Assembly (NCBI GenBank): GCA_012522085.1
Contig: JAAYLE010000115.1
Location: 1-33,658, forward strand
Source of the DNA: Bacillota bacterium
Lineage (GTDB): Bacteria; Bacillota; Limnochordia; JAAZLZ01
DNA: 33,658 nucleotides
Direction: 5' to 3'
In this document: piece by piece, positions 12,763-30,093 of the stretch
Layout of the letters: each line of letters begins with the position of its first letter
Numbering within the stretch: position 1 is the first letter of the stretch
Position numbers and translations under genes: made by a program
The notes under the pieces: model-generated
Database searches by the model: none
Told to the model about the DNA's origin: nothing
What the model saw: the letters and a program-made list of their open reading frames with translations, nothing else

Positions 12763-14469
12763 TCAATATTCGCAATGTAAGTCAAACTCCTCCATGAGCT
12801 GGGCGAGGACCGGATCGGGAATCTGATGGATCCGGCATCCTGCCCGGTAGTCAAAGAGCAAGCCTAAGGGCTTCCGCAGCGGCGCATCGGGACGGGTCAC
12901 ATCGAAAGGAAAGATCTCTAGACGCAGGGAGTTTTTGGCTCCCGCGGGAGCAATGTCTGGAGCCAGCTCCAACAGGCGTGGCAGGGCTTGTCTTGGGAGC
13001 GGGCTGCCCTTGATGGCTGGGGGAAGGGCCATCTTTCCGGAAAAGCGCCGAAAATCGTATCGCAGTAGAGCGGCCAAGAAGGCGGGCGAGCTGCCAAGGG
13101 TCTGCCCGAACTGAAATAGCTGGTCGTAAAGGGCGGGGACTTGCTGCTCGAATCGATCGAGCCCCTGGGCTTCCCGAAACTTTCCCAGAGACAGGAAAAG
13201 GTCAAAGGGAGGCAGCAGGGAGGTGAGATGGGCAAGGGTCGTCGGGAAGCGGCCCGAGTTGTAGAACCGTTCCACCGTCCGCTCGAGGAGCTTGAGGTCC
13301 AGGATGAACCCGTAAGGCATCGCCTTTGTTGTCAGGATCTCGTAGGGCGGATGGTCCGCATAGATGAGGCCGAAGCGATGGGCATCCCGCCGCAAGTCGG
13401 TCCCCGGGAGGACTTTGAGGAAATTCAGCTGCAATCGGTGAGGCTGCAGGTGGTAGACTTCGTTGAAAGACCGGGCGAAGGACGCAGGAGTTTGCTCGGG
13501 CAGGCCGGCGATGAGATCGAGGGTCAGGTGAACGTTGGTCTCCCGGCGAAGCCTGACCAGGGCGTCCCGCGGCCGGCCCCAGTCCGTTGAGCGGTTCACC
13601 GCGGCGAGGACTGCCGGATCTGTTGACTGGACGCCCACTTCAAAGTTGAACCGTCCCTCCGGAACTTGCGCCAGGAATCGCAGCATGTCATCATCCAGCA
13701 GGCGTCCTTCGATCTCAAAATGGCACGGCGGGCCGGTCCTTGCCAGTATATGGCTCCAGATGGCAAGGGTGCGCTTTCGATCGAGGTTAAAGGTTCGGTC
13801 AACGAACTTGATTTCCCTCGGTCCTGCGGTCATGACCCGGTTGAGACGGTGCTTGACCTGACCCAGGGGGAAATAGGTCACTCCTGGAGTGCGAGATGAC
13901 AGGCAGTAGCTGCACCGAAAGGGACAGCCCCGGGAAGATTCGATGTAGGCAATCCGGTTCTTTAAGTCATCGGCCTTTCCGTAGGGGAGCACAGGGATGG
14001 GGGCTGCTGCCGCCGGCGGCCAGTAAACGATGCGGCTCCCCACCCTTCCCGCAAGGCCCGGTATGCCGGCAAGTTCTTCTCCCCGCTCCATCCTCCGCAG
14101 GAGCTCTAAGAAGGGGGTCTCGCCCTCGCCGCATACAATCCAATCGATGTAGGGGTGGTCCCTTAAGATTCCCTCCGGATCAGCGCCTGCTTCCGGCCCC
14201 CCCAGGACGATGACTAGATCCTCTTGCACTTTTTTCAAGATGGAGGCCGTCTGGAGGGTGGGGACGATGTTCCATATGCTGCAGGAAAAGCCGATGGGGT
14301 TGCACCCTTGTTGATAGATGTCCCCGGCAATGAAGCTTATCGGCTCGCTGACCTGATACTCCCGGTATTGGATCTCCGGGAACTCGCCTTGGCAGTGGGC
14401 GTGCAAACAGCGCACGGCCAGACACGTTTGGATGTACATGGAGTTAATGGCAACGAGCAGTGGACGCAT
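12763..14469 (-). CDS. B12-binding domain radical SAM protein (DUF4080-like)
   Basis: Radical SAM motif ESSRGCPFRCSYCLSS; N-terminal cobalamin-binding-like region; FNFEVGVQSTDPAVLAAVNR. Confidence 0.9.
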   Translation of the reverse strand: MRPLLVAINSMYIQTCLAVRCLHAHCQGEFPEIQYREYQVSEPISFIAGDIYQQGCNPIGFSCSIWNIVPTLQTASILKKVQEDLVIVLGGPEAGADPEGILRDHPYIDWIVCGEGETPFLELLRRMERGEELAGIPGLAGRVGSRIVYWPPAAAAPIPVLPYGKADDLKNRIAYIESSRGCPFRCSYCLSSRTPGVTYFPLGQVKHRLNRVMTAGPREIKFVDRTFNLDRKRTLAIWSHILARTGPPCHFEIEGRLLDDDMLRFLAQVPEGRFNFEVGVQSTDPAVLAAVNRSTDWGRPRDALVRLRRETNVHLTLDLIAGLPEQTPASFARSFNEVYHLQPHRLQLNFLKVLPGTDLRRDAHRFGLIYADHPPYEILTTKAMPYGFILDLKLLERTVERFYNSGRFPTTLAHLTSLLPPFDLFLSLGKFREAQGLDRFEQQVPALYDQLFQFGQTLGSSPAFLAALLRYDFRRFSGKMALPPAIKGSPLPRQALPRLLELAPDIAPAGAKNSLRLEIFPFDVTRPDAPLRKPLGLLFDYRAGCRIHQIPDPVLAQLMEEFDLHCEY

Positions 14470-14511
14470 TGGGCGGGCCTCCGGCGTGGAATCCTCTCGC
14501 GAAGACTTCGA

Positions 14512-14536
14512 GGGGAAGGTTGTGTTAACCTTCCCC
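14512..14536. terminator. 10-bp perfect hairpin between the DUF1015 and radical SAM genes
   Basis: ggggaaggtt (14512-14521) gtgtt aaccttcccc (14527-14536); no clear T-tract. Confidence 0.45.
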
Positions 14537-14562
14537 GTTAGTTATGCCCTCGTCCGGGACGT

Positions 14563-15816
14563 TTACGCCCAAGTATACATTACTAGCCCGGAGAGGAGTT
14601 TGGGAAAGAAATAGGTGGACTTGGGCGGCATGATGCTGCCGCTGCGAGCCACGGTCATGATGCTCTCAACTGGCGTTGGATTGAGCAGAAAAGCAGTCAG
14701 GTAGCTGCCTTTGTCCACCAACTTGACAGCCGTATGGACATCCTGGGTAAAACCAAGGCGGCTCGGTTGAGAAAGACCATCGAGGAGGCCCGCATGGAGG
14801 ATCGATACATCCAGCCTGCGGCATGCCGGTGCGTAGCTCTCCAGCTCCTTGAGGGCCGCCGGCGATCGCAGACTCAAGAGGTAGCTTCGGTCCCTGCCCC
14901 CGTAGCAGATGAAGCTGCCCGGGCGCTGGGCGAGGATGGCCGGGTACTTGCCGGGGGGATCGTCCGCTGGCAGCCGCTCGATGTTGAAAGTGCGGGAGGC
15001 CCGGTTAAGCTTCGTTTCTGTCGCCAGCATCTCCCCAACCAGGCGGTGGGTGGGCAGGATGGTCAAGTCCTCATTGGCGCTGAACAAAGCGGCTAAAATG
15101 TAATCGTAGGGCTGATCGGAGCCGCCTGCCCGCCGCCGGCTGTACTCTAACGCGGACTCGTAACGGTGGTGGCCGTCGGCGATGAATACCTGCTTGTGGG
15201 CAAAGTAGGATTGCAGATAGCTAATAATTGCTGGATTGTAAATCGGCCACAGCCGATGGGTGACCTCCTCCTCGTCAGTTACTTCGATTGTTGGCTCCAT
15301 CTGGATCTGGGCCCGCAGGAGATCATCGACTGATCCGGAACCGTCTTCGTAGAAGCAGAAGATCTGGCTAAAGTTGGCCTGGGTCTCCTCCAGCAGACGG
15401 AGAAGGTCCGCCTTCGGCCCCGGGAAAGTCCTCTCATGGGGCAGTACGACCTGGTTCTCGTACTCCTCCAGCCTGAGCAGGCAGATCAGTCCTAGCCTGC
15501 GCCGGATCCTCCCGGGGGGAGAGGTGAATTGTTGCTCGTAAACATAAAAACCTGGCTGTTCGTCCTGAATCAGGATTTCCTCCGCTCGCCATCGCCTCCA
15601 GCACCGGGCGGCCCTGATGAAGCGATTCTCTCCGTGATGATCCCCATTCCGGTCCAGTCCCAGGATCAAACGGATCGAGTTGTACGGAGATGCTTCATGA
15701 TATTTCTGCCGATGGCAGGGATCAATAAGATCGTAAGGCGGGGTGACTACTCCCCGATAATCAACAATAAACTCCGGGTTGTAACGAACAGCACGGAAAG
15801 GCTTGATAACGGCCAT
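14563..15816 (-). CDS. DUF1015 family protein
   Basis: MAVIKPFRAVRYNPEFIVDYRGVVTPPYDLID..., FIADGHHRYESALEY; ORF track extends upstream to 15855. Confidence 0.9.
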   Translation of the reverse strand: MAVIKPFRAVRYNPEFIVDYRGVVTPPYDLIDPCHRQKYHEASPYNSIRLILGLDRNGDHHGENRFIRAARCWRRWRAEEILIQDEQPGFYVYEQQFTSPPGRIRRRLGLICLLRLEEYENQVVLPHERTFPGPKADLLRLLEETQANFSQIFCFYEDGSGSVDDLLRAQIQMEPTIEVTDEEEVTHRLWPIYNPAIISYLQSYFAHKQVFIADGHHRYESALEYSRRRAGGSDQPYDYILAALFSANEDLTILPTHRLVGEMLATETKLNRASRTFNIERLPADDPPGKYPAILAQRPGSFICYGGRDRSYLLSLRSPAALKELESYAPACRRLDVSILHAGLLDGLSQPSRLGFTQDVHTAVKLVDKGSYLTAFLLNPTPVESIMTVARSGSIMPPKSTYFFPKLLSGLVMYTWA

Positions 15817-15951
15817 AAGGCAGGCTCCTCTCAGCTCACGCTCAACTTGGCTCATCCTAAACTCTGCTAGTCTGGAGTGTAATTACATGATAATACATCT
15901 AGAGGCTGAAATCAACACATAGATTCCTGGGATTGCCCTTCCGGCGCTTGG

Positions 15952-16764
15952 CTAGGTCTCTGACGGGAGATTTCGGAAAGCCAAGACCTCCAGAGCGGGA
16001 GTCCGATCGCCGCTGCAGCTGATCATCCTCGGCCCCCGGAGGAATCGCAGCCTGAAGCCGTATTCCCTGTAGAGCTTGATGATTCGGGGGGTTGCCTGGT
16101 TGGACAGCACCACTGGCCCCGGGTGTCCTGCCAGCCACTGGACCAGGCGGACCTGATCATCCCAAGTGAACCCGGAGCTGGCATATTGGGTGAACTCCAC
16201 ATCATAGGGAGGGTCCGCGTAGACGAAATCCGAAGGCTCCAGCTGCAGGCCCGCAAAGTCGCCGCAGACAAAATCCCAGTCGGCAAAGACCTGTCGATAA
16301 GGGGAGAAATCCCTGGTGTAGTTGATCTTCTTGTACTTGCCGAAGGGAACGTTGAAGAACCCCTGCCGGTTGAAGCGGCAAAGACCGTTGTAGCCTGTGC
16401 GGTTGAGATAGTAAAAAAGTTCAGCTGCTTCTTTGGAATCGGCCCGGCCTGCGGCCAAGAGCTGGTTAAACCGATCCCTGTGGGCGTAAAAGAGCTCCTC
16501 GTCATTTTCCATCGGCAGCGAAATATAAAGGCCTTTCTGCAGCCAGCGGAAAAAGTTGATCAAATGGAAGTTGATATCGTTCAGCAGGGCTCGCCCGGGG
16601 CGAAGGCCCAAAGTCACGGCCAGGCCGCCGCAGAGGGGTTCGACCAGGCGGCGGCTTTGATACGGCTCCCATAGGGAGCGAAGGTGGGGAACAAGCCATC
16701 GCTTGCCGCCGGCCCACTTTAGGGGCGGCCTAAGACCGCGACGGGTGCTCTGGGAAATAGACAT
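15952..16764 (-). CDS. dam: DNA adenine methylase, Dam/MT-D12 family
   Basis: PPLKWAGGKRWLVPHL (motif I), LVEPLCGGLAVTLGL, LLNDIN, FVYADPPYD (catalytic DPPY). Confidence 0.9.
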   Translation of the reverse strand: MSISQSTRRGLRPPLKWAGGKRWLVPHLRSLWEPYQSRRLVEPLCGGLAVTLGLRPGRALLNDINFHLINFFRWLQKGLYISLPMENDEELFYAHRDRFNQLLAAGRADSKEAAELFYYLNRTGYNGLCRFNRQGFFNVPFGKYKKINYTRDFSPYRQVFADWDFVCGDFAGLQLEPSDFVYADPPYDVEFTQYASSGFTWDDQVRLVQWLAGHPGPVVLSNQATPRIIKLYREYGFRLRFLRGPRMISCSGDRTPALEVLAFRNLPSET

Positions 16765-16871
16765 ATGGACCTCCCTTGCCGTCGGAGAATGCTGATGCTT
16801 ATCATCTTACTTGGACACAACGCGCCCGGATACCTGTCAAGATGAAGCGGGCCGAGTTGCGGCCCGCAGCA

Positions 16872-17633
16872 TTATTTCGCCGATGATCCGCCATCGACGG
16901 CCAAGACGGCGCCGGTTACGTAGCGGGCTTCGGGAGAAGCAAGGTAGAGCGCAGCGTGGGCGATTTCCTCGGGAGTGCCCAGGAAGGGAGTCATGCGGCG
17001 GCTGATGAACTCCTTGCGGATCTCTTCCGGCCTGGGATGGGATGCGATGACTTTAGCGACCATCGGGGTCTCTACGGTGCCCGGGCAGACGACATTTACC
17101 CGGATGCCATCGGGGGAGTGATCGGCCGCCATCGCCTTGGTCAATCCGATCAAGGCTGCCTTGGCGGTGCAGTAGGCGGCGCGGCTGCGCAGCCCCTTGA
17201 GTCCCGCCTCCGAGGAGACGTTGATGATCACTCCCGATTTCCTCTCTAGCATGTGGGGAAGAACGAAACGACTGACCAGGTAGGCGGAGGTGACATTGAC
17301 ATGGAAGACATCATTCCAGTTGGCCAAATCTGTCTCTGGAATGGTGCCGTTGAACACAACCCCTGCGTTGTTGACTAGAATGTCGATTTGGCCAAATCGG
17401 TCGAGGGCGTCCGCGACCATCTTCTTGACCTCCTCCTCGTCGGTGAGCTCTGTGGGGAGGAAGACGGCCTCTCCGCCCTTTGATTCGATTTCGGACACAG
17501 TCTCGCGGCCCCGTTCTTGGTTTCGGCCCACGACAACCACGCGAGCCCCTTCTTGAGCAAAAAGCAGCGCAATGGCCTTGCCGATCCCGGATGTGGCTCC
17601 AGTCACGATGGCTGTCTGTCCCTGCAGTCTCAT
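16872..17633 (-). CDS. SDR family oxidoreductase
   Basis: TGATSGIGKAIA, NNAGVV, YCTAKAAL (YxxxK), C-terminal YVTGAVLAVDGG. Confidence 0.92.
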   Translation of the reverse strand: MRLQGQTAIVTGATSGIGKAIALLFAQEGARVVVVGRNQERGRETVSEIESKGGEAVFLPTELTDEEEVKKMVADALDRFGQIDILVNNAGVVFNGTIPETDLANWNDVFHVNVTSAYLVSRFVLPHMLERKSGVIINVSSEAGLKGLRSRAAYCTAKAALIGLTKAMAADHSPDGIRVNVVCPGTVETPMVAKVIASHPRPEEIRKEFISRRMTPFLGTPEEIAHAALYLASPEARYVTGAVLAVDGGSSAK

Positions 17634-17678
17634 AGCTGTCGCGCCCCAAAGCGGCTTGGAGCGCCATCCACCTCCCTG

Positions 17679-18524
17679 CTAGTCTAATAGTTTCTCGCAG
17701 TACTTGACCCAAACGTGTTGGGGATCTTCCCTCCAGGCTCCATAAAGCCTCTGATCGCCGGCAATGGCCCAGAAGTAATAAACTTCGTAGCCCCCGGCCG
17801 CACTGACTGGATGATAGCCCCGGGGGATGAGCCCGATGTCATTATTCTCAATGACGAAGACTTCATCGAAGGGCTCGGGATCGTCCTTATCGGTGTAGAC
17901 GCGCATGACGCCGAATCCCTGGGGAGGGTTGACCTGGAAGAAGTACACTTCTTCCGCCGGCATCTCGTAGGGCGGGTTCTCAGAGTCATGTTTGTGGGGA
18001 GGGTAGCTGGACCAGCCGCCGGGAGCGGCGAAGGTCTCGCCAACGAGCAGACGGTCCGCCTGGATGTTGTCGCCTAGGCAGTTGTAGACCCGTCGTCGCC
18101 AATTGCTTGCCCCGGCCGCGCTCATCGCGGCGTCTTCGGGTCGAATGAGGGCGGGCGCCGTATCCACGCGGGCTGGGGCGGAGACCAACAGGACATCTAG
18201 CCGCGGTGAGCGCCGACTGATGGTGAAGGTGCTCTCCCTGGGAATGTAGACGGTCGTGGGGCCTCCCTGAAAAACGTCTCTGCGGCCGCCGATGTTCGGA
18301 TAGTCCAATTTAAGGCCGGTCTTAGTGGACACCCGGACGGCGGCTTTCCCTCCTAAGATGTGCAAAGCTGCTTCCCTGTCTTCCGTAGAGCCCTCGTACA
18401 TGCCTTGCTCGGGGGTGAGTAGGATGCGGCTCAGCCTAATCAGTTTCAAGGGGGAATTGTTCTCATCGACTAGAACATAACAGCCGGGGCTTGGGGGCTG
18501 CCCTTTTATTAGGTACTTGCTCAT
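17679..18524 (-). CDS. iolB: 5-deoxy-glucuronate isomerase, IolB-like
   Basis: GGWSSYPPHKHDSENPPYEMPAEEVYFFQVNPPQGFGVMRVYTD and IGLIPRGYHPVSAAGGYEVYY. Confidence 0.88.
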   Translation of the reverse strand: MSKYLIKGQPPSPGCYVLVDENNSPLKLIRLSRILLTPEQGMYEGSTEDREAALHILGGKAAVRVSTKTGLKLDYPNIGGRRDVFQGGPTTVYIPRESTFTISRRSPRLDVLLVSAPARVDTAPALIRPEDAAMSAAGASNWRRRVYNCLGDNIQADRLLVGETFAAPGGWSSYPPHKHDSENPPYEMPAEEVYFFQVNPPQGFGVMRVYTDKDDPEPFDEVFVIENNDIGLIPRGYHPVSAAGGYEVYYFWAIAGDQRLYGAWREDPQHVWVKYCEKLLD

Positions 18525-18647
18525 GGAACTGACCTCCTGTTAGTTGATGTTCCTTAGCAGCCGGTGGATTGTGGCAAACATTGCTAAGATATTAATTCTT
18601 TGCCTCCCGAGGAAAACCTGCCCGCAGGCAGACCGGTCTCCTCGTCC

Positions 18648-18701
18648 TTAACAAGTTCTTGACAATCCCTTGAAACTATCTTGAGGAACTGGTGTTATCA
18701 T
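18648..18701 (+). promoter_or_regulatory. Four-hexamer 11-bp direct-repeat array plus -10, candidate OmpR-family regulator promoter
   Basis: TTAACA 18648, TTGACA 18659, TTGAAA 18670, TTGAGG 18681, exact 11-bp steps; TATCAT at 18696 (alternative TGTTAT at 18693, 17 bp after TTGAAA). Confidence 0.55.
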
Positions 18702-18743
18702 GAACTTGCCGTTCGAGTTAAACTAAGACAAGGGGGTCAGCAA

Positions 18744-19535
18744 ATGAGAACCAAGCTGATGACAATTACAGGCGTGCTGCTGATTGCTCTGCTGGCAGTC
18801 ACCGGGGGTGGACTGGCCAGGCGCGGCCCGGGCCCTCTGGGTCGAGATGCGGGGTTGGGGGTTTGCGTGGACGTTGCGGAAGCCCTGGGGTTAACCATCG
18901 ATGAGTACATCAAAGCCCGTCGAGAAGGCAAATCGATCGCTGAGCTGGCAGAAGATCAGGGACTGACTGTGGATGAGTTGAAGGCTAAGCTTCTAGAGGG
19001 GCCCCGGGCCTTCGTTGAGGAGCAGCTGGCCGCCGGACGCATGAGTGAAGCCAAGGCCGTCTACATGCTGGAAGTGATAGAAGAACGAGTTGGTCTTTGG
19101 CTGCAGGATGGAGGAGCAGGTCCTTTCTTTGGCAACTGGAGAGGAGGCGGATACGCTCGGAGGATGGCAGTTGTCGGCCGTGGACTGGCCAGGCGCGGCC
19201 CGGGCCGTTTTGGCCGGGGCGTGGGGATGGCGGTTTGTATTGACATTCCGGAAGCCCTGGGTTTGACCATCGATGATTACATCAATGCCCGTCGGGAAGG
19301 CAAGTCCGTCGCTGAGCTGGCCCAGGACCAGGGATTGACGCTGGATGAGCTGAAGGATAAACTTCTGGAGAGGCCGCGGGCTTTCATTGAGGAGCAGCTG
19401 GCTGCCGGACGCATCAGCGAGGCCAAGGCGGCCTACATGCTGGAAGTGATGGAAGAGCGGCTGAATCTTTTCCTGCAGGATGGAGAGGCGGGTCCTAGAC
19501 GGATGTATCGGGGCTTCGGACCTAGGCGCAGATGA
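18744..19535 (+). CDS. DUF2680-like secreted protein with internal duplication
   Basis: Signal peptide MRTKLMTITGVLLIALLAVTGGG; two about 105-aa repeats (...EALGLTIDEYIKARREGKSIAELAEDQGLTVDELKAKLLE...). ORF track starts too early (18681). Confidence 0.7.
   Translation: MRTKLMTITGVLLIALLAVTGGGLARRGPGPLGRDAGLGVCVDVAEALGLTIDEYIKARREGKSIAELAEDQGLTVDELKAKLLEGPRAFVEEQLAAGRMSEAKAVYMLEVIEERVGLWLQDGGAGPFFGNWRGGGYARRMAVVGRGLARRGPGRFGRGVGMAVCIDIPEALGLTIDDYINARREGKSVAELAQDQGLTLDELKDKLLERPRAFIEEQLAAGRISEAKAAYMLEVMEERLNLFLQDGEAGPRRMYRGFGPRRR
18810..19496 (+). repeat. Intragenic tandem duplication (units from 18810 and 19182)
   Basis: DNA ggactggccaggcgcggcccgggcc occurs at 18810 and 19182 (372-bp offset); 81 of 105 aa identical by hand alignment. 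Confidence 0.85.
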
Positions 19536-19536
19536 T

Positions 19537-19562
19537 AACCCGGTGCATCGCACCGGGTTTTT
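19537..19562 (+). terminator. Rho-independent terminator
   Basis: aacccggtgc atc gcaccgggtt followed by ttt. Confidence 0.85.
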
Positions 19563-19637
19563 CCTTGTATCGCCTGCCGGGAGGAACAGGGGCTGGAATG
19601 AGGAATCCTGTCCTTAGAGGACCAGGGAAGGAGGAAC

Positions 19638-20366
19638 GTGGATATGCAGCAGGCGCCCTCCCGACGGATCCTAGTCGTTGAGGATGAACCGAAAATGCTC
19701 GCCATGATATCCCAGTTCCTCGAAGGTGAAGGATGGGAGGTCTACGGTTCGGGGACGGGGGAGGAGGCCTTGAAGCTGATGTCAGAGGTTGCTCCCGATC
19801 TAGTCATCCTGGACTGGATGCTTCCGGGCATGAGCGGTTTGGATGTCTGCCGCAGGATCAGGGCCGAGTCTAAAGTGCCCTTGATCATGCTGACGGCCAA
19901 AGCTGACGAGGTAGACAAGCTCCTAGGCCTTGAGCTTGGTGCGGACGACTACATCACCAAGCCGTTCAGCTTGAGGGAGCTTTCGGCCCGGATCAGAGCA
20001 GTTCTGCGCCGCAGCTTTGGGGCATGGAGGGAAGAAAGACTCAGGCTCGGAGACCTGGTGATCGATCTAGATCGGTACGAGGTGCGCAAGGCTGGTGTCA
20101 AAGTGCAGCTGACTCCGACGGAGTTTAAGATACTGTCGATTTTAGCGTCGAGTCCCGGGCGGGTGTACAGCCGCCTGCAGCTGGTGGATGCAGCTTTGGG
20201 TGAATCCTACCAGGGCTATGAACGGTCGATCGACACCCATATCAGCAACTTGAGGAAGAAATTAGGGGATGACTCGGCCCAGCCCAAGTACATCGATACC
20301 GTTTACGGGGTGGGCTACAGGATGCTTGCCGCCAAAGGGGATGCCGATGATTCGCTGGAAAGATAG
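19638..20366 (+). CDS. OmpR-family response regulator
   Basis: Receiver LVVEDEPKMLAMI, VILDWMLPGMSG, ADDYITKPFS; winged-helix C-terminus YERSIDTHISNLRKKLGDD. Confidence 0.95.
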   Translation: MDMQQAPSRRILVVEDEPKMLAMISQFLEGEGWEVYGSGTGEEALKLMSEVAPDLVILDWMLPGMSGLDVCRRIRAESKVPLIMLTAKADEVDKLLGLELGADDYITKPFSLRELSARIRAVLRRSFGAWREERLRLGDLVIDLDRYEVRKAGVKVQLTPTEFKILSILASSPGRVYSRLQLVDAALGESYQGYERSIDTHISNLRKKLGDDSAQPKYIDTVYGVGYRMLAAKGDADDSLER

Positions 20367-21726
20367 CATCCAATGGAAAGTAGTCGGGGCCCTTGTTTTC
20401 ATCGCTCTGCTGGCGACCATCGCCGCGATGCTGAGCAGCATGGCCTTGACCAAGACTTTCTTCACCCGCTACCTGGATCGCACCCGCTACGGGCGATCCG
20501 AACAGCTGGCAGAGGTATTGGCCGCCTACTACGAGCGGGTTGGCAGCTGGCAGGATGTGGATGAGCTGCTGCTTGGCTGGTCCGGCCGCATGGGGCGGAT
20601 GGCGCCCGGAAGGCGGCTGGTTCGGGAGCGTCTCGTGCTGGCTGACGAAAGGGGAGTTGTGATCGTCGATTCCTCCGGCCGCTCCCTGGGGGAGATCATC
20701 CCCAGAGCGCAGCTAACGCAAGGCGCCGAAGTGATCGTCGACGGCCGCCGGAGGGGAACCGTATTCCTCATGACCGTTGCAGGGATGGCCCTTGGGAACA
20801 TGGAAGAAGAATTCTTGTTCTCCTTGCGCCGCTCTGCCTGGACGGTGGGCGCAGGAGTGGTTTTGGTAGCGGCTTTCGTCGGCCTGCTTCTTTCGAAGCG
20901 CCTTGTCGGCCCGCTGGTGACCCTGGCGCAGGCGACCCGCCGTTTGGCCGGCAGGGACCTTGCTTACCGGGTCCCTGTAGAATCCGAGGATGAGATCGGA
21001 GAGCTCGCTCGGGCCTTCAATGCGATGGCGGCCAAGCTCGAGGAGACGGAGGAGCTTCGCCGGAACATGATCGCTGACTTGGCCCACGAACTGAGAACGC
21101 CAATCAGCATCCTCCGGGGCAACTTGGAATCCCTGCAGTGGCAGCTCCAGGAAGCCACCCCCGAGCTCATCATTTCGCTCCATGATGAGGCGGTCCGTTT
21201 ATCTCGCCTTGTATCTGATTTGCAGTCTCTGGCCGTCGCCGAGGCAGGAGAGTTGAAGCTGAACCGGGAGCAGGTGGACCCGGGCGAATTGGTGGGAGGC
21301 TTATCAATGGTTTTCGCCGTGGAGGCAAATGCTAAGGGAGTCGACCTGCAGGTGGACATCGATGAGGATGTGCCTGCCCTTTGGGTGGATAGGGACCGTC
21401 TGCGGCAGGTGCTGCTCAACTTGTTGACTAACGCCCTCCACCACACCCCAGCCGGAGGCCGGGTAGGGCTTAGGGCTCATCGGCAGGATGGAGGCGTCCG
21501 GTTGGTAGTCAGCGACACCGGACCGGGCATCGGGCCCGAGGAGATTCCCCGGGTCTTTGACAGGTACTATCGGGCTCCTGCCCAGGACCCCGGGGGGGTT
21601 GGGCTGGGACTGGCCATAGCCAAGGCGTATGTCGAGGCCCATGGGGGCACGATATGGGTGGAAAGTGAACTAGGGCGGGGGACTAGCTTTTATGTTGAGC
21701 TGCCGGAAGGAGCGAAAGACCAATGA
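20341..21726 (+). CDS. Sensor histidine kinase, BaeS-like (HAMP, HisKA, HATPase)
   Basis: HAMP region, DLAHELRTPISILRGNLE, LLTNALHHTPAGG, DTGPGIG, GVGLGLAIAKAYVEAHGG; 26-bp overlap with the regulator gene. Confidence 0.93.
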   Translation: MPMIRWKDSIQWKVVGALVFIALLATIAAMLSSMALTKTFFTRYLDRTRYGRSEQLAEVLAAYYERVGSWQDVDELLLGWSGRMGRMAPGRRLVRERLVLADERGVVIVDSSGRSLGEIIPRAQLTQGAEVIVDGRRRGTVFLMTVAGMALGNMEEEFLFSLRRSAWTVGAGVVLVAAFVGLLLSKRLVGPLVTLAQATRRLAGRDLAYRVPVESEDEIGELARAFNAMAAKLEETEELRRNMIADLAHELRTPISILRGNLESLQWQLQEATPELIISLHDEAVRLSRLVSDLQSLAVAEAGELKLNREQVDPGELVGGLSMVFAVEANAKGVDLQVDIDEDVPALWVDRDRLRQVLLNLLTNALHHTPAGGRVGLRAHRQDGGVRLVVSDTGPGIGPEEIPRVFDRYYRAPAQDPGGVGLGLAIAKAYVEAHGGTIWVESELGRGTSFYVELPEGAKDQ

Positions 21727-22319
21727 GGGTGCTGGGGATAGGGGCCAGCCCCCGCAAGGGAAACAGCGAAGCCTTGCTTGATGAAGCGCTGTCGGCGAAG
21801 CACATCCAAGGGGAGAAGGTAAACCTGCGGAAACTGAAGCTGAATCCTTGCCTTTCTTGCGGTCGCTGTGAGAAAAGGCCGGGGTGCGTCTTCAAGGATG
21901 AAATCAGCGCCCTTTATGATCGCCTTTACGACTTCGAAGGGATCATCTTCTCCTCACCCGTCTATTTCGGCAGCCTTGCCGCCCAGGCCAAAGTGTTCAT
22001 CGATCGAGCGCAATTTGCATGGGCCGGCCGCCATCTTATGCAGCGTTCCCGGGGTGTGAAGGCGGTCTTGTTGGTCGTTGCCGGGATGCGGAATCGACCT
22101 GATTTCTTCCGCAACGCGGAGGAAATCTTCAAGATTTGGTGCATCTGCCTAGGCTTGGAATACAGAGGGGGGCTCTATTTCCCCGGGGTCGATGCCGTTG
22201 GGGACTTAACCGCCGATGATCGGCGGCGGGCCCGGGAGGCGGTGCGGCTGCTCTTGGGGGGCAGAGAAGGAAGTCCTCCCTCCTCTGTGGAAGTAGGGGA
22301 GCAACCGAATTCTCTTTGA
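21723..22319 (+). CDS. Flavodoxin-like NAD(P)H-dependent FMN reductase / iron-sulfur flavoprotein
   Basis: GIGASPRKGNSEALLDEAL, CLSCGRCEKRPGCVFKD, FSSPVYFGSLAAQAKVFIDR; ATGA overlap with the kinase. Confidence 0.85.
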   Translation: MRVLGIGASPRKGNSEALLDEALSAKHIQGEKVNLRKLKLNPCLSCGRCEKRPGCVFKDEISALYDRLYDFEGIIFSSPVYFGSLAAQAKVFIDRAQFAWAGRHLMQRSRGVKAVLLVVAGMRNRPDFFRNAEEIFKIWCICLGLEYRGGLYFPGVDAVGDLTADDRRRAREAVRLLLGGREGSPPSSVEVGEQPNSL

Positions 22320-22332
22320 AGGGGGATCAGGG

Positions 22333-22869
22333 ATGAAGGACCTCAAAGGCACAAGGACTGAGGCTAATCTGTGGGCGGCGTTTGCTGGGGAGTCCCAGGT
22401 CCGCAACAAGTACACCTATTTTGCCAGTGTCGCCAAGAAAGAGGGCTACGAGCAGATAGCCGCGATTTTCTTGGAGACAGCGGACAATGAGCGGGAACAT
22501 GCCAAGATGTTTTTCAAGAAGCTGAATGGGATTGGCGATACGGCGGCCAACCTGGCGGCGGCTGCTGCCGGCGAGCACGAAGAATGGAGCGACATGTACA
22601 AGGAATTTGAACAGGTCGCCAGGGAAGAGGGCTTCGATGAGATAGCCGCACTCTTCCATGAAATCGCTGAGGTGGAAGAGGAGCACGAGAAGCGCTTCCG
22701 GGCGCTGCTTAGCAACCTGGAGACCGGCAAGGTCTTCAAGAAGGACGCCCCCATCAGGTGGCGCTGCCGCAACTGCGGCTACGTCCACGAAGGGCTCGAG
22801 GCGCCCAAGGTGTGCCCGGCCTGCGCCCATCCGCAAAGTCACTACGAAGTTGCCTGTGACAACTATTAA
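22333..22869 (+). CDS. Rubrerythrin
   Basis: Ferritin-like diiron motifs (ETADNEREHAKMFF, EVEEEHEKRF) and C-terminal rubredoxin WRCRNCGYVHEG...CPACAHPQ. Confidence 0.95.
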   Translation: MKDLKGTRTEANLWAAFAGESQVRNKYTYFASVAKKEGYEQIAAIFLETADNEREHAKMFFKKLNGIGDTAANLAAAAAGEHEEWSDMYKEFEQVAREEGFDEIAALFHEIAEVEEEHEKRFRALLSNLETGKVFKKDAPIRWRCRNCGYVHEGLEAPKVCPACAHPQSHYEVACDNY

Positions 22870-22910
22870 TCAGGGAGGGGGTCCCCCTCCCTCCTTTAAA
22901 TGAGGGGTAG

Positions 22911-23822
22911 ATGGTGCGGATTATTAGTCTACTATTGTGTTTTGTTCTGCTCGCCGGAGGGGCCTGCGCCAACGAGCTTGAGCTGGTTGAAGACGGTTCC
23001 TTCATAGCCAAAAACTCGCCCTGGCAGGCGATAGGAGCTGATGAAGCAGGCCAGTTCAGCGGGGACGGCTGGGACGGGCCAGGCTGCGGGCGGCTTTGGC
23101 GCGGCGATCGGGGCGAAGCTTTCTGGAGCCAGGAGATAAAGGAGTTTGATCCCTCAGCCCGCTACCGGCTGACGGGGTACGTGCGGGTGGAGGAGCCGGC
23201 AAGTGCATATCTCGGCGTGGAGATCACCGGGAAGGATGGCACGCCCGCCTATCGCGGCGCCATGATGCAGGTCAGTCCTGCCGACGGGTGGGTGATGCTC
23301 GAGCACATCTTCCCGGGAGCGGAGGCGAAGGAGGTTAAGCTTCTTGCCGGGGGAACCTTTGTCGGAGGGATGTTTTGGGATGCAATTGAACTAAGGCGCG
23401 TCGAATCGGAAGCCGAGGCCATCGCCAGGCGCTTGCAGGCCCTTTGGGATGAGCATGGCCGCGTCTACACAGGGCTGATCATTGATGCCCGGGGACTGCG
23501 GATGCAGCGGGGCATGTCGCCCCGGGTCTATGCCAAGGACGGGCGGGAAGTATACGGGACCGCCCATGTCAGCGCCGATGTCCTCTTAGAGCGGGGCATC
23601 GCCGGCTACAGCAGGAGCCTCGATGAAGCAGTCCTCCATCCCCTCTTGTCCGTGAGTCCCGAGTTTCCCTACACCTTAGGACTAATCCTGCCTGCCTTGG
23701 AGGTTATTGGCCCCACCAGGTCCAGCGTAGTCATCAGCAATGAAGGCGCCGACCAGATACAGCGCTGGACCCAGGTCTATGATTTCCTCAGCGAAGGTCG
23801 GGTCATCTTCGTCATCGATTAA
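22911..23822 (+). CDS. Secreted hypothetical protein; CBM-like N-terminal half plus conserved C-terminal GLIIDARGL...VYG...VIFVID domain
   Basis: Signal peptide; SARYRLTGYVRVEEPASAYLGVEI; VYTGLIIDARGLRMQRGMSPRVYAKDGREVYGT...VVISNEGADQIQ...GRVIFVID. Confidence 0.6.
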   Translation: MVRIISLLLCFVLLAGGACANELELVEDGSFIAKNSPWQAIGADEAGQFSGDGWDGPGCGRLWRGDRGEAFWSQEIKEFDPSARYRLTGYVRVEEPASAYLGVEITGKDGTPAYRGAMMQVSPADGWVMLEHIFPGAEAKEVKLLAGGTFVGGMFWDAIELRRVESEAEAIARRLQALWDEHGRVYTGLIIDARGLRMQRGMSPRVYAKDGREVYGTAHVSADVLLERGIAGYSRSLDEAVLHPLLSVSPEFPYTLGLILPALEVIGPTRSSVVISNEGADQIQRWTQVYDFLSEGRVIFVID

Positions 23823-23824
23823 GC

Positions 23825-24511
23825 TTAGAAAAACAACATGGCTAGACGGCTGAAGGCGTCGGTGTACAGCATTATGCCGATGATGATCAGAAACAGGCCG
23901 TTGATCATGGTGATGGTGCGGCCTTTGCTCAGGAGCGTCCGCAAACGTTGCTGCCAATACTGGAGAGAGAGCGCGATAAGCATGAAGGGAATTCCCATGC
24001 CTAGGGAGTAGGCGGCCAGCAAGGCGATTCCCTGGCCGAGGGTCTGGGCAGTGCTCGCATAGAGTAGAATGGCTGCCAGGATGGGCCCGACGCAGGGGGA
24101 CCATCCCGCGGCGAAGGCCATTCCAATGAGGAAGGAATTGAGGCCGCCCCTCGGCGGGGAGACGCGCAGTCGCCGCTCCTGTCCTAGGAAGGGCAGGGAA
24201 AGCCAGCCTCCTGTATGGAGTCCAAGGACGATCACCAAAAGCCCAGCTGCTCGGCGAAGCAGTCGCTGATGGCGCAGGAGGAGCTGCCCCAGCATGGTGG
24301 CCGACGCGCCCAAGAGGATGAAGATTAGAGAAAAGCCGGCGACAAAAAGAAAAGCATTGAGCACCACCGAAGTCCGGTCGGCTTCCTTGCCTTCACTGAC
24401 GGACAGGCCGGCCAGATAAGTCACATAGACCGGCAGCAGGGCCAGGACGCACGGCGAGGCCAGGGACAACAGGCCGGCGGTCAAAGCGATGAGCAAAGAT
24501 ACCTGCGGCAT
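23825..24511 (-). CDS. ccdA: Cytochrome c biogenesis protein CcdA
   Basis: GLLSLASPCVLALLPVYVTYLAG and FAAGWSPCVGPILAAIL. Confidence 0.92.
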   Translation of the reverse strand: MPQVSLLIALTAGLLSLASPCVLALLPVYVTYLAGLSVSEGKEADRTSVVLNAFLFVAGFSLIFILLGASATMLGQLLLRHQRLLRRAAGLLVIVLGLHTGGWLSLPFLGQERRLRVSPPRGGLNSFLIGMAFAAGWSPCVGPILAAILLYASTAQTLGQGIALLAAYSLGMGIPFMLIALSLQYWQQRLRTLLSKGRTITMINGLFLIIIGIMLYTDAFSRLAMLFF

Positions 24512-25091: not shown

Positions 25092-25295
25092 CGTTGTGCA
25101 GACCGTTGCCAAGGCCCCTTCCGGAGGGCTGTTTGCAGGGATCCTTAAACGAGTGCTATAATATCGTTAGGGACGACGATGGGAGCCCCTGCGCAGCAGG
25201 GCCCTTTTTCGTGCGTTCTAGCTTCACAGATTTGACATTATTCTATGATACAATGCGCTTGTTAGCAAGGGCTCCGCTTTGGGAGGTAGCGCGCA

Positions 25296-26006
25296 TTGAA
25301 ACGCATTTTGGTTGTGGACGATGAGCCCAATGTCTGCGAGCTGGTCCAGCTGTACCTGGAGAAAGAAGGTTATCGAGTCTACTTAGCCCACGACGGGCAG
25401 GAAGCCCTCGACATGATCTTCAGTCGGACGCCCGACTTGATTGTGCTCGACTTGATGCTTCCGGAGGTGGATGGCTGGGAGGTCTGCCGACGGGTGCGCA
25501 AGGCTATGTCGACGCCCATCATCATGCTGACTGCCCGAGGCGAGGATGTTGACAAGATCTTGGGCTTGGAGCTTGGGGCCGACGATTATTTGACCAAACC
25601 ATTCAATCCGCGGGAGCTGGTGGCTAGGATCAAGGCCGTCTTGCGGCGAGCAGGTCCGGAAGAGCCGGAGCCGGCCAGGGCCATGTGGTTCCCGGGCTTA
25701 GAAATAGACTCGCTGGAGCATAAGGTCCGTTTGAACGGCAAAGGTGTGACTTTGACCCCCAAGGAGTTTGACCTGTTGTGGCTCATGGCCAGCAATCAAG
25801 GGCGTGCCTTTTCGCGGGCGCAGCTTCTAGAGCAGATATGGGGATATGACTTTTTTGGCGATGAGCGAACCATTGATGTGCACGTGAAGCGCCTCCGCCA
25901 GAAAATCGAACCCGAGTCCCATCCCTACCGCTATGTCCAGACCGTTTGGGGTGTGGGCTATAAATTTGAGGTGGTCAGATGCGCAGCCTCTTCGGCAGAC
26001 TCCTGA
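25296..26006 (+). CDS. OmpR-family response regulator, ResD/PhoP-like
   Basis: RILVVDDEPNVCELV, LIVLDLMLPEVDG, ADDYLTKPFNPRELVARIKAVLRR, winged helix DERTIDVHVKRLRQKIE; TTG start. Confidence 0.94.
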   Translation: MKRILVVDDEPNVCELVQLYLEKEGYRVYLAHDGQEALDMIFSRTPDLIVLDLMLPEVDGWEVCRRVRKAMSTPIIMLTARGEDVDKILGLELGADDYLTKPFNPRELVARIKAVLRRAGPEEPEPARAMWFPGLEIDSLEHKVRLNGKGVTLTPKEFDLLWLMASNQGRAFSRAQLLEQIWGYDFFGDERTIDVHVKRLRQKIEPESHPYRYVQTVWGVGYKFEVVRCAASSADS

Positions 26007-27754
26007 GCAGCTACTTGATCATCATTCTACTGACAGCCCTCAGTGTAGGGTTCAGTCTTTCCCGCTTTTTCACAAATTACTACAGGATGGTGCTGGGAGA
26101 AGAACTTACCCAGCAGGCTGAACAATTAGCCAGCCGCCTGGCGATTCCGTTGGAGCTGGATGAGGAAGTCGACGTAGAATATATGATAGATTCCTTTGAA
26201 GACTGTATCGGGGTCGGCGTCTGGCTGGTGGACAACCTAGGCATAGTGCGGGAAACCTCCGAGCGGTACGCCGATTGGCGGGGGGCGCGGATAGAGGGGT
26301 CTTTGCAGCGGGAGCTGGCCGCTGGCCGGACTGTTGTCTACCGGAGGGGGGAAGGCCCCCTCGCGGAGGGGATCATTACCGTGGCCGTCCCCATCAGAAC
26401 AGCCGATGGGGTGGGAGGGGGAGTACTGCTCCATTACCCCGTGCGGGGCATTGCGCGAACCCTGCGGGCGGTTAGACCCTTGTTTTACCGGACGTTGATG
26501 TGGGCAGTGCTCCTATCCGTCGGGGTGGGATTCTTCATGTCCCGCAAGCTCGCCAAGCCCTTGCAGGAGATGACCGCTATCTCCCTGGAGATGTCTCGCG
26601 GCAATTTTGACAAGCGGGTCCAGGAAGTCTCTCAGGATGAGGTAGGCCAACTGGCTAGGGCCTTCAACCATTTGGCCGAGGAGCTTGGCCGCAGCATCCA
26701 TGCCTTGACTCAGGAGAAAAGCAAGAGCGAGTCCATCTTAGTGAGTATGACCGACGGGGTGATTGCCTGTGATGCCGAAGGCAGGGTCATGCTCATGAAT
26801 CCAAAGGCCGTGGAATTCTGCGGTCGGCCGGAAGCATCGGCCATCGGCGAGGACTTGCGGGAGGTCATCCCGGATCCACTGGTGGTGGAGAGTTTTCAAG
26901 AGACGCTGGCTAGCGGCCGAAGATGCGAGCTTGAGGTCGAGCGGGGCAGCAAGGCTTTCCTGGTGCGCATTTCGCCGATTACCGGTCCGGGGGGGGAGAA
27001 CTGGGGTTCAGTTGCCCTGCTGAATGATATCAGCAGCCGCCGGGAGCTGGAGGAGATGAGACGCCAGTTTGTTGCCAACGTCTCGCATGAGCTGCGCACT
27101 CCCCTGACTTCAATCAGGGGATTCCTGCAGGCAATCCTTGACGGGGTGGTGACTGACCCTGCTTCGGTGCGGAAGTACATGCGCATCATGCTGGCCGAGT
27201 GCCTCCGCCTCATCAGGTTGTCCAACAGCCTGTTGGATCTATCTCGAATTGAAGGGGGCAGCATCGAACTTTATCGGGAAGAGGTGGAGCTTGGTCCCTT
27301 AGTGCAGGAAATCTTCGACCGGCTGCTGCCGGCCATTGATGACAAGGAGCTGAAAGTAAGCCTTGGTATTCAACCGGGCTTCCCGCCCCTGCTTGTGGAC
27401 CGGGACCGGATGGCTCAGGTGATGCTTAACATTATCGACAACGCTGTCCGCTTTACTCCCAAAGGGGGTCGGATCCTAGTCCAGGCGGCTGTGGAAGACG
27501 GCCGGGCTGTGATCAGGGTCAGGGATACGGGGCCGGGCATCGATCCGGAGGAATTGCCTTTGATTTGGGAGCGTTTCTACAAAGGCGACAAGTCCCGTCG
27601 GTCCGGGCCCGGGGGAACGGGTCTGGGGCTGGTGATTGTCAAACAGCTGGTAGAAAAGCACGGCGGATTTGTCGATGTCGAATGTCCTCCTGAGGGTGGT
27701 GCAGTATTCATAGTCTCCTTGCCCCTTCGCCAAGAAGTTGGGGTCGTGAGATAG
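25979..27754 (+). CDS. Sensor histidine kinase, ResE/PhoR-like (extracytoplasmic region, HAMP, PAS, HisKA, HATPase)
   Basis: FVANVSHELRTPLTSIRGFLQAILDG, IDNAVRFTPKGG, DTGPGIDPEELPLIWERFYKGDKSR, GTGLGLVIVKQLVEKHGG. Confidence 0.94.
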   Translation: MRSLFGRLLSSYLIIILLTALSVGFSLSRFFTNYYRMVLGEELTQQAEQLASRLAIPLELDEEVDVEYMIDSFEDCIGVGVWLVDNLGIVRETSERYADWRGARIEGSLQRELAAGRTVVYRRGEGPLAEGIITVAVPIRTADGVGGGVLLHYPVRGIARTLRAVRPLFYRTLMWAVLLSVGVGFFMSRKLAKPLQEMTAISLEMSRGNFDKRVQEVSQDEVGQLARAFNHLAEELGRSIHALTQEKSKSESILVSMTDGVIACDAEGRVMLMNPKAVEFCGRPEASAIGEDLREVIPDPLVVESFQETLASGRRCELEVERGSKAFLVRISPITGPGGENWGSVALLNDISSRRELEEMRRQFVANVSHELRTPLTSIRGFLQAILDGVVTDPASVRKYMRIMLAECLRLIRLSNSLLDLSRIEGGSIELYREEVELGPLVQEIFDRLLPAIDDKELKVSLGIQPGFPPLLVDRDRMAQVMLNIIDNAVRFTPKGGRILVQAAVEDGRAVIRVRDTGPGIDPEELPLIWERFYKGDKSRRSGPGGTGLGLVIVKQLVEKHGGFVDVECPPEGGAVFIVSLPLRQEVGVVR

Positions 27755-27772: not shown

Positions 27773-27826
27773 TTCATAGGTTTTTCATAAATCCTTAATA
27801 CTTTCGTCATATATTTAGTGTATAAT
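27773..27826 (+). promoter_or_regulatory. Four-hexamer 11-bp direct-repeat array plus TATAAT upstream of codY
   Basis: TTCATA 27773, TTCATA 27784, TTAATA 27795, GTCATA 27806, exact 11-bp steps; TATAAT 27821-27826; no good -35. Confidence 0.6.
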
Positions 27827-27881
27827 GTTCACGAAATAGTATAGATATTGCAGAGGGCACATTTGAAGGGGGAATGAAGTC

Positions 27882-28673
27882 TTGGAGAAACTGCTAGAGA
27901 AGACCCGCGAGTTGGCAAAGGTGACTGCCCGGGAGACTGCCCAGGGCGGCGGCATGAAAAGCCTCACCAGGGCTATGGCTGACCTGTTGGGCGACGTCAC
28001 CGTGTATGTTTTTGGGAACAAGGGCGAGATCATTGAAGCTGCAATCCCCGATGGCGAGCAGTGTCCTTTGATGGAAGAAGGACGACTTTCCGCCCGGATG
28101 GCTGCCCAGGTTCTGGTGGCCAGCGAAACGGAGAGCTTTGACAATACAGATGGGACATGCCCATTCACCAACGAGAAACAGGTCTGCCCATACGTACCTC
28201 AGGAAGGCGTGTATGTGCCCCTGTGGCTGGGCGAAGAGCGGCTTGGCACCTTGGCTGTGATGGCCGGGGAGGGGGGCCTCAACGAGGGCCAGTTGATCCT
28301 GGCTGAGATGGCGGCAGTGATCCTAGGCATGACCATGCTCAACGAACGGCGGCGGCGGGAGCTCCAGCAGTCGCGGGAGCGCTTCATGGCGGAACTGGCC
28401 ATGGAGAATCTGTCGTACACCGAATTGATCGCTGTAAATGCCATTTTGGAGGAGCTTCCCGGCCGGGAAGGCATCGTGGTAGCCAGCAGGATCGCCGATC
28501 GGGCAGGCATTACCAGGTCGATCTTTGCCTCCGCCTTGCGCAAGCTGGAATCGGCCAATGTCATCCACACTCGCTCCTTGGGGATGAAGGGGACCTATAT
28601 CCAGATTTTGAACGATTCAATCCTGGAGCTCTTGGAGAGCAGCGGCCCCCAGGGACAGCCGAAATATGCCTGA
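27882..28673 (+). CDS. codY: GTP-sensing pleiotropic transcriptional regulator CodY
   Basis: N-terminal LLEKTRELAKV...GAF region; DNA-binding GIVVASRIADRAGITRSIFASALRKLESANVIHTRSLGMKGTYIQILND; TTG start after aaggggg. Confidence 0.95.
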   Translation: MEKLLEKTRELAKVTARETAQGGGMKSLTRAMADLLGDVTVYVFGNKGEIIEAAIPDGEQCPLMEEGRLSARMAAQVLVASETESFDNTDGTCPFTNEKQVCPYVPQEGVYVPLWLGEERLGTLAVMAGEGGLNEGQLILAEMAAVILGMTMLNERRRRELQQSRERFMAELAMENLSYTELIAVNAILEELPGREGIVVASRIADRAGITRSIFASALRKLESANVIHTRSLGMKGTYIQILNDSILELLESSGPQGQPKYA

Positions 28674-28755: not shown

Positions 28756-28980
28756 CAATTGTGGGATCATCTCCCGCGAGGAAAATAGCTACTGGTCGCT
28801 TAATAAACCTTGTATAATATGAGTATGCAATGCTTTGTACAGGGCGAAAGGAGGTATACGCTGCGGATATCGCCAGTAGTCTGGGGTCGGTTGACAAGGC
28901 GACAGGATGTTTGGTGATTATTCGCTGAGAGGAGGAATGGCGCTATTAACCCGTTATCATGGTTTTTGCGCCGGTCGAGA

Positions 28981-30093
28981 ATGAAAAGGAGTAGACTTCG
29001 CTTCTCTTCCCGCTTAGTCTTGGCATTGATGATGTTGTTGGTTTTGATGCCCGTCGGCGATCTGGGGCTGGCCCGGGATTGGGAGACGGTTTTTGCCCAG
29101 CCTTATGCGGTTGCGGATGTGGTCGACAAGGTGGGTCCTGCGGTTGTCTTTATCAAGGCTGAGTTCCAGGCCGTTACCCAGCGGCGCAGTCCCTTCACGG
29201 ACCCGATGTGGTTCTTTCCTTTTCCTCAACCAGGACCCAGGGAGAGCGCTGGTACGGGCTTCATCATCAGTGAAGATGGTTATATCTTAACGAACCAGCA
29301 TATCTTTGATCCGCCCGAGCGGCTGGAGAAGATTTACGTCAGCGTGTTGAATCATGAGGAGCCTTTCGAAGCGGAGCTTATAGGATGGGATTACGATCTG
29401 GACCTGGCCATCTTGAAGATCGACGCGGAGGAAGAGCTTCCCGTAGCTGAGCTCGGCAATTCCGACGAGGTCCGGGTAGGCGAGTGGGTGGTGGCCATCG
29501 GCAACCCGTATGAGTACGACCACACGGTCACCGTTGGGGTCTTGAGCGCCAAGGGCCGCCGGATCGCCATTCAGGATACGGAGCGGGGCCAGGCGAAGGT
29601 TTATGAGAACCTGATGCAGACTGACGCGGCCATCAATCCGGGCAACAGCGGCGGACCTTTGCTCAACCTCAAGGGCGAAGTCATCGGGATCAACACCGCC
29701 GTGCGGGCCGCCGCCCAGGGAATTGGCTTTGCCATTCCAATCAATGTGGCCAAAGAAGTAGTGGACGACCTCATCCAGAAGGGCAAGGTGGTCCGGCCCT
29801 GGATCGGGATTGGCTACTTGCCCGTCGATGATTCGGTCAGGGAGTATTTCGGGCTGCCTTCGAGCACGAAGGGCATTGCCATCGTCGATGTCTACCCCGA
29901 CAGTGCGGCATCCAAGGCGGGTCTGCGGGTCGGCGACGTGGTGATTGAGGTTAACCGCAAGCCCATTGAGGATGCCGACCAGTTCAGGGAGGCCATCAAG
30001 GGCCTGAAGCCGGGCGACACCCTCTTCTTCATCGTCCTGCGGGATGGCAGGGAGCGGCTGGTGAAGATCGTCGTTGGGGAAATGCCCAGGTAA
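28981..30093 (+). CDS. HtrA/DegP-like trypsin-type serine protease with PDZ domain
   Basis: GTGFIISEDGYILTNQHI, LDLAILKID, DAAINPGNSGGPLLN, C-terminal PDZ GIAIVDVYPDSAASKAGLRVGDVVIEVN. Confidence 0.95.
   Translation: MKRSRLRFSSRLVLALMMLLVLMPVGDLGLARDWETVFAQPYAVADVVDKVGPAVVFIKAEFQAVTQRRSPFTDPMWFFPFPQPGPRESAGTGFIISEDGYILTNQHIFDPPERLEKIYVSVLNHEEPFEAELIGWDYDLDLAILKIDAEEELPVAELGNSDEVRVGEWVVAIGNPYEYDHTVTVGVLSAKGRRIAIQDTERGQAKVYENLMQTDAAINPGNSGGPLLNLKGEVIGINTAVRAAAQGIGFAIPINVAKEVVDDLIQKGKVVRPWIGIGYLPVDDSVREYFGLPSSTKGIAIVDVYPDSAASKAGLRVGDVVIEVNRKPIEDADQFREAIKGLKPGDTLFFIVLRDGRERLVKIVVGEMPR

Follow-up and report, generated by a model that had tools for sequence, protein, structure and literature searches.

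A tandem 11-bp operator at the promoter of a CodY-like gene is the likely binding site of the linked WalR-like response regulator

A tandem array occupies the position of the −35 element

In the 33,658-nucleotide stretch of DNA analysed here (the window), a gene for a divergent CodY paralogue is preceded by four hexamers at 11-bp steps, which most likely form the tandem operator of RR1, an OmpR/PhoB-family response regulator encoded at 25296..26006 on the plus strand. On sequence grounds, RR1 probably activates the CodY-like gene through this array, activation being drawn from the geometry of the promoter. The four half-sites lie on the plus strand and read TTCATA (27773..27778), TTCATA (27784..27789), TTAATA (27795..27800) and GTCATA (27806..27811), the last being proximal to the promoter and having CTTTC immediately on its 5′ side. 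Read directly from the sequence, the step is exactly 11 bp and the array spans 27773-27811. A perfect consensus −10 element, TATAAT (27821..27826, plus strand), stands 9 nt 3′ of half-site 4, separated from it by the spacer TATTTAGTG. The start site predicted from this −10 element lies at about 27833, which would place the half-sites at approximately −60 to −55, −49 to −44, −38 to −33 and −27 to −22.

This promoter carries no −35 element at 15–19 nt spacing; the hexamer 17 nt 5′ of the −10 element is ATACTT, and a consensus scan returned zero plus-strand sigma-70 promoters at this site. Sequence and promoter scan thus confirm the four hexamers, the TATAAT and the missing −35 element described in the first-pass annotation, as well as the fit of the first three hexamers to the B. 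subtilis PhoP consensus TT(A/C/T)A(C/T)A, which GTCATA matches at 5/6 positions. At the 11-bp period, the array scores 22/24 matches to this consensus. When the intergenic region was shuffled 2000 times with its dinucleotide content preserved, 0/2000 shuffles reached this value and the best scored 20; 0/600 reached it when periods of 7–15 were tested, whereas the array itself scores 16–17/24 at periods other than 11. A repeat-finding tool reported no inverted or simple repeats in the array region, the array copies being too short for it. The array begins 18 bp after the stop codon of the RR1 sensor kinase gene, and the CodY-like gene downstream is preceded by a plausible ribosome site.

The downstream gene encodes a divergent CodY paralogue

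The target gene (27882..28673, plus strand) starts with TTG and encodes 263 amino acids. Both Pfam domains of the product score above their cut-offs (CodY GAF, 56.0 bits; HTH_CodY, 79.5 bits), while both NCBIfam CodY equivalog cut-offs are missed (213 of 255 and 185.8 of 267.2 bits). In the alignment, the sequence of its recognition helix throughout the genus (three species) is SIFASAL, where all other CodY proteins read have SVIVNAL or SVVVNAL. The SVIVNAL stretch contacts DNA and is reportedly conserved across all CodY proteins (PMC10415144). With the equivalog cut-offs missed and the recognition helix changed, the gene is better described as a divergent CodY paralogue than as the codY of a global GTP/BCAA regulator, as had been proposed earlier. 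In B. subtilis CodY, Arg-61 pairs with the carboxylate of isoleucine (PMC5314169); the paralogue has no arginine at this place, and neither do the other aligned CodY proteins of the class. A canonical-type CodY is encoded elsewhere in the genomes of both congeners (G001 and G002). It was not found in the source genome of the window (G000), where this copy probably sits in an assembly gap. The GAF segment of the paralogue also contains three cysteines (EQCPLMEE, CPFTNEKQVCPY) that are invariant across the three species and might form a metal site.

RR1 and its kinase are closer to WalR/WalK than to phosphate systems

By profile models and tree, RR1 is WalR/MtrA/PhoB-like. The closest curated models are YycF, MtrA and PhoB, all of them under cut-off; the best, YycF, gives 254.5 of the 340 bits required. 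Profile models and gene order identify the product of 25979..27754 (plus strand) as the RR1 sensor kinase, WalK/PnpS-like, with the HAMP-PAS-HisKA-HATPase domain order of WalK. WalK is also its best model, although the cut-off is missed (373.7 of 725 bits), followed by PnpS, likewise below cut-off; its extracellular domain was not identified by Pfam. An HtrA/DegP-like protease, assigned from domains and gene order, is encoded at 28966..30093 on the plus strand. In three genomes of family f11, htrA precedes the RR1 orthologue, in an operon of the order htrA-RR-kinase. No further close RR1 orthologues were found among 73 genomes of the class.

The earlier assignment of this pair to PhoP/PhoPR did not hold. 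PhoU-adjacent regulators from five genomes (G008, G016, G020, G024 and G028) form a clade separate from the RR1 orthologues (support 99/97), and both types coexist in the same genomes. RR1 is therefore not the phosphate regulator of the PhoB/PhoP type. Within the genus, PhoU domains occur only in one 566-aa protein, which by its size appears to be of the Na/Pi-cotransporter type, and no RR1-type element was found near its gene. A phosphate regulon was accordingly dropped as the regulon of the array, since the PhoU-linked regulators belong to the other clade and this transporter gene lacks a site.

The element is conserved in the genus and recurs at orthologous promoters

The genus was sampled with three genomes, namely the source of the window and its two congeners, and regulons were scanned by pattern searches of the genomes. 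Searched with a tolerance of 3 mismatches, the four-hexamer pattern gave one match per genome in all three, always before the CodY-like gene, and the controls gave 0. The array of G002 is a perfect series (TTCATA/TTCATA/TTCATA/GTCATA) and that of G001 reads TTCACA/TTCATA/TTCATA/GTCATA, so that TTAATA at half-site 3 is a deviation of the source genome from both congeners. Because the three species are near-identical in the array and its flanks, this conservation is weak evidence alone and shows mere persistence. The gene order kinase-codY-htrA-queG is identical in the G001 and G002 assemblies, and the locus therefore did not arise from misassembly. The expectation that relatives would share the array was borne out within the genus and at the operons of RR1 orthologues, but not at other codY loci: upstream regions of 33 other codY genes in the class contained an array-type site in none (0/33), which means that the codY wiring is genus-restricted.

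The RR1 operon carries the same two-half-site element at its own promoter, TTCACA-N5-GACATT-N9-TACAAT (25223..25254, plus strand), spaced from the −10 element as in the codY-like promoter and with weaker half-sites. This direct repeat-N9-(−10) arrangement is found in all three genus species, for example as TTCATA-N5-GTCATC-N9-TAGAAT in G002. A third promoter with the element, kept in all three species (L114, 4774-4805), precedes genes for a 56-aa CxxC mini-protein, a HAD phosphatase and an SbcD-like Metallophos protein.

In other families, the same element can be seen by eye at the promoters of RR1-orthologue operons, with GACACA-N5-GTCACA-N9-TAAAAT in G003, GTCATC-N5-GACACG-N9-TAGAAT in G017 and TTCACT/TTCATG/TTCATA-N9-TATAAT before htrA in G020 (family f11). 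Two motif comparisons were carried out. In the forward direction, a motif built from the codY arrays of the genus alone was scored over seven loci encoding an RR1 of at least 60% identity, with 14,304–23,938 positions each, and the promoter of the RR1 operon (or of htrA-RR-HK) ranked first in six of the seven loci and second in the remaining one; these loci span three other families. In the reverse direction, a matrix built from the seven RR1-orthologue promoters alone was scored over the 67,254 positions of the window, and the codY-like promoter came first (24.9 bits) and the RR1 promoter second (20.5 bits); the next ranks were other registers of the codY array, and the best position outside both promoters reached 11.7 bits. 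These ranks carry a mild circularity, as the three f11 training promoters had been located by a hand-made score on which the codY array had had an influence, an effect that the whole-locus ranking limits. For RR1 relatives of at most 59% identity, no convincing site was seen at their own operon promoter.

Across eight genomes outside the genus, the RR1 element occurred 14 times, compared with 2 for a reversed control. In family f11, RR1-type elements (L155, L156, L164, L165 and L166) precede TolC-like, HlyD-like, SIMPL and DUF2680 genes. Outside the genus, elements also stand before htrA-RR-kinase, and the listed targets are an outer-membrane efflux protein, an HlyD-type adaptor, a SIMPL protein and DUF2680 secreted proteins. 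This gene content suggests an envelope-type regulon.

Proposed mechanism and alternative explanations

The assignment of RR1 as binder rests on the periodicity and uniqueness of the array, the element at the RR1 promoter, the cross-family ranks in both directions and the recurrence of the element at envelope genes outside the genus, and also on the TTGAMA half-site at the operon of the sole full OmpR-type regulator recognised besides RR1 in G000 and G002. An OmpR-family operator in activator position, as first annotated, is thus supported, and the cross-family ranks make the linked regulator at 25296 its most likely binder. Activators of the PhoB type bind at such positions as two head-to-tail dimers, whose contact with sigma substitutes for a −35 element. 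Likewise, two dimers of phosphorylated RR1 would line up along a single face of the helix, filling all four half-sites. The distance from the proximal half-site to the −10 element is fixed at 9 nt, and bound RR1 would replace the missing −35 element and recruit RNA polymerase, activating the CodY-like gene. Through the element at 25223, RR1 would also switch on its own operon. The signal would be the state of the cell envelope, to judge from the WalK-like kinase, the HtrA linkage and the envelope targets in relatives, and a surface signal may in this way switch on a regulator of the metabolic type.

RR1 might instead bind the array and repress the CodY-like gene. There is a precedent in S. aureus, where YycF, a WalR-type regulator, binds the codY promoter and lowers its expression (PMC9593060); regulation of this kind has thus been described, although the first-pass annotation knew of no description. 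In addition, no terminator was found on the plus strand between the RR1-kinase operon and the CodY-like gene, so the latter could be read from that operon. However, the promoter has no −35 element, the half-sites lie exactly where an activator would replace one, and their spacing equals that at the RR1 promoter and at the promoters of relatives, which renders repression unlikely. The likeness to S. aureus consists in a WalR-family regulator at a codY promoter, binding being predicted here; the S. aureus case involves repression and unlinked genes, whereas here the geometry is that of an activator and the kinase gene is immediately followed by the target, which encodes a divergent paralogue of CodY.

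It is quite improbable that the array chiefly serves the RR1-kinase operon and that control of the CodY-like gene is incidental. Its closeness to the kinase stop codon would agree with such a role and recalls the PhoP boxes just behind phoR in B. subtilis, as cited in PMC6232261, and in G004 the kinase gene is followed by a similar array that leads into no clear protein-coding gene. Nevertheless, the array of the window, unlike the phoR 3′ boxes as cited there, stands at a set distance from a consensus −10 element directed into a gene that has a credible ribosome site, and the operon is provided with a separate site, at 25223. The G004 array (L132, 5867-5921) comprises TTACCA, TTCATA, TTAACA and TTCACA at 11-bp steps, N9 and TACAAT, directly 3′ of the orthologous kinase gene, and is possibly followed by a small RNA.

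Only two full OmpR-type regulators were recognised in G000 and G002, both lying inside the window in G000, namely RR1 at 25296 and RR2 at 19638-20366; G001 gave two further weak OmpR-type domain hits. The operon of RR2, which encodes a secreted protein, RR2 and a BaeS-like kinase, is itself preceded by a 4 x 11-bp array (18648-18701: TTAACA/TTGACA/TTGAAA/TTGAGG, N9, TATCAT). This array is almost unchanged in G001 and G002, although the whole aligned stretch is only 76–79% identical there. Despite the shared geometry, its half-sites (TTGACA/TTGAAA/TTGAGG) are of the type TTGAMA, unlike those of the codY array, which match the promoters of RR1 and its orthologues; RR2 was therefore rejected as binder of the codY array and is a very remote candidate. 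A regulator-free reading, in which an A+T-rich UP-element or bent DNA (34% G+C in a window of 58% G+C) lies 5′ of a strong −10 element and the periodicity is due to chance, is practically negligible, as no same-composition shuffle reached the periodicity and the element recurs independently in other families.

Relation to known systems

The proposed RR1 operator combines features of two known types. Like the B. subtilis PhoP-box and the E. coli PhoB Pho-box, it consists of tandem 11-bp direct repeats for at least two dimers, located at about −20 to −60 from the predicted start in the place of the −35 element, and its half-sites resemble the E. coli Pho-box core CTGTCAT (PMC4415409). Unlike in Pho systems, RR1 is not linked to PhoU/Pst, as judged from the PhoU domains examined, and in relatives its predicted sites precede envelope rather than phosphate genes. 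The WalR (YycF) box, TGTWAH-N5-TGTWAH (PMC9210968, PMC9593060), shares the 11-bp spacing of hexamers; further likenesses to the Wal system are YycF and WalK as the nearest models and the htrA linkage. However, each half-site of the array matches TGTWAH at only 4/6 positions, and the array was rejected as a WalR box owing to this poor match. Moreover, wal operons are reportedly not autoregulated (PMC9210968), whereas the RR1 operon carries its own site. Combined, the RR1 protein appears closer to the WalR type, the operator architecture to the Pho-box, and the half-site differs from the WalR box.

More speculatively, an envelope-stress two-component system could have captured a duplicated CodY under its own tandem operator behind the kinase gene, with the paralogue diverging in DNA recognition and effector pocket to give a dedicated two-tier relay from an envelope signal to a second regulon. 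We consider this a tentative scenario. These results provide a testable operator/regulator pair from an uncultured anaerobe lineage and define a DNA motif for an htrA-linked regulator present in several families of the class. They also suggest that control of CodY-type regulators by envelope signals can extend beyond the one case reported from S. aureus. As neighbours with the same promoter geometry and different half-sites, the RR1 and RR2 systems may be useful for specificity studies.

The predicted start of the CodY-like transcript is covered by AATGTTCACGAAATAGT (27824-27840), an imperfect TTC/GAA palindrome that is nearly invariant in the three species and could be an autoregulatory site.
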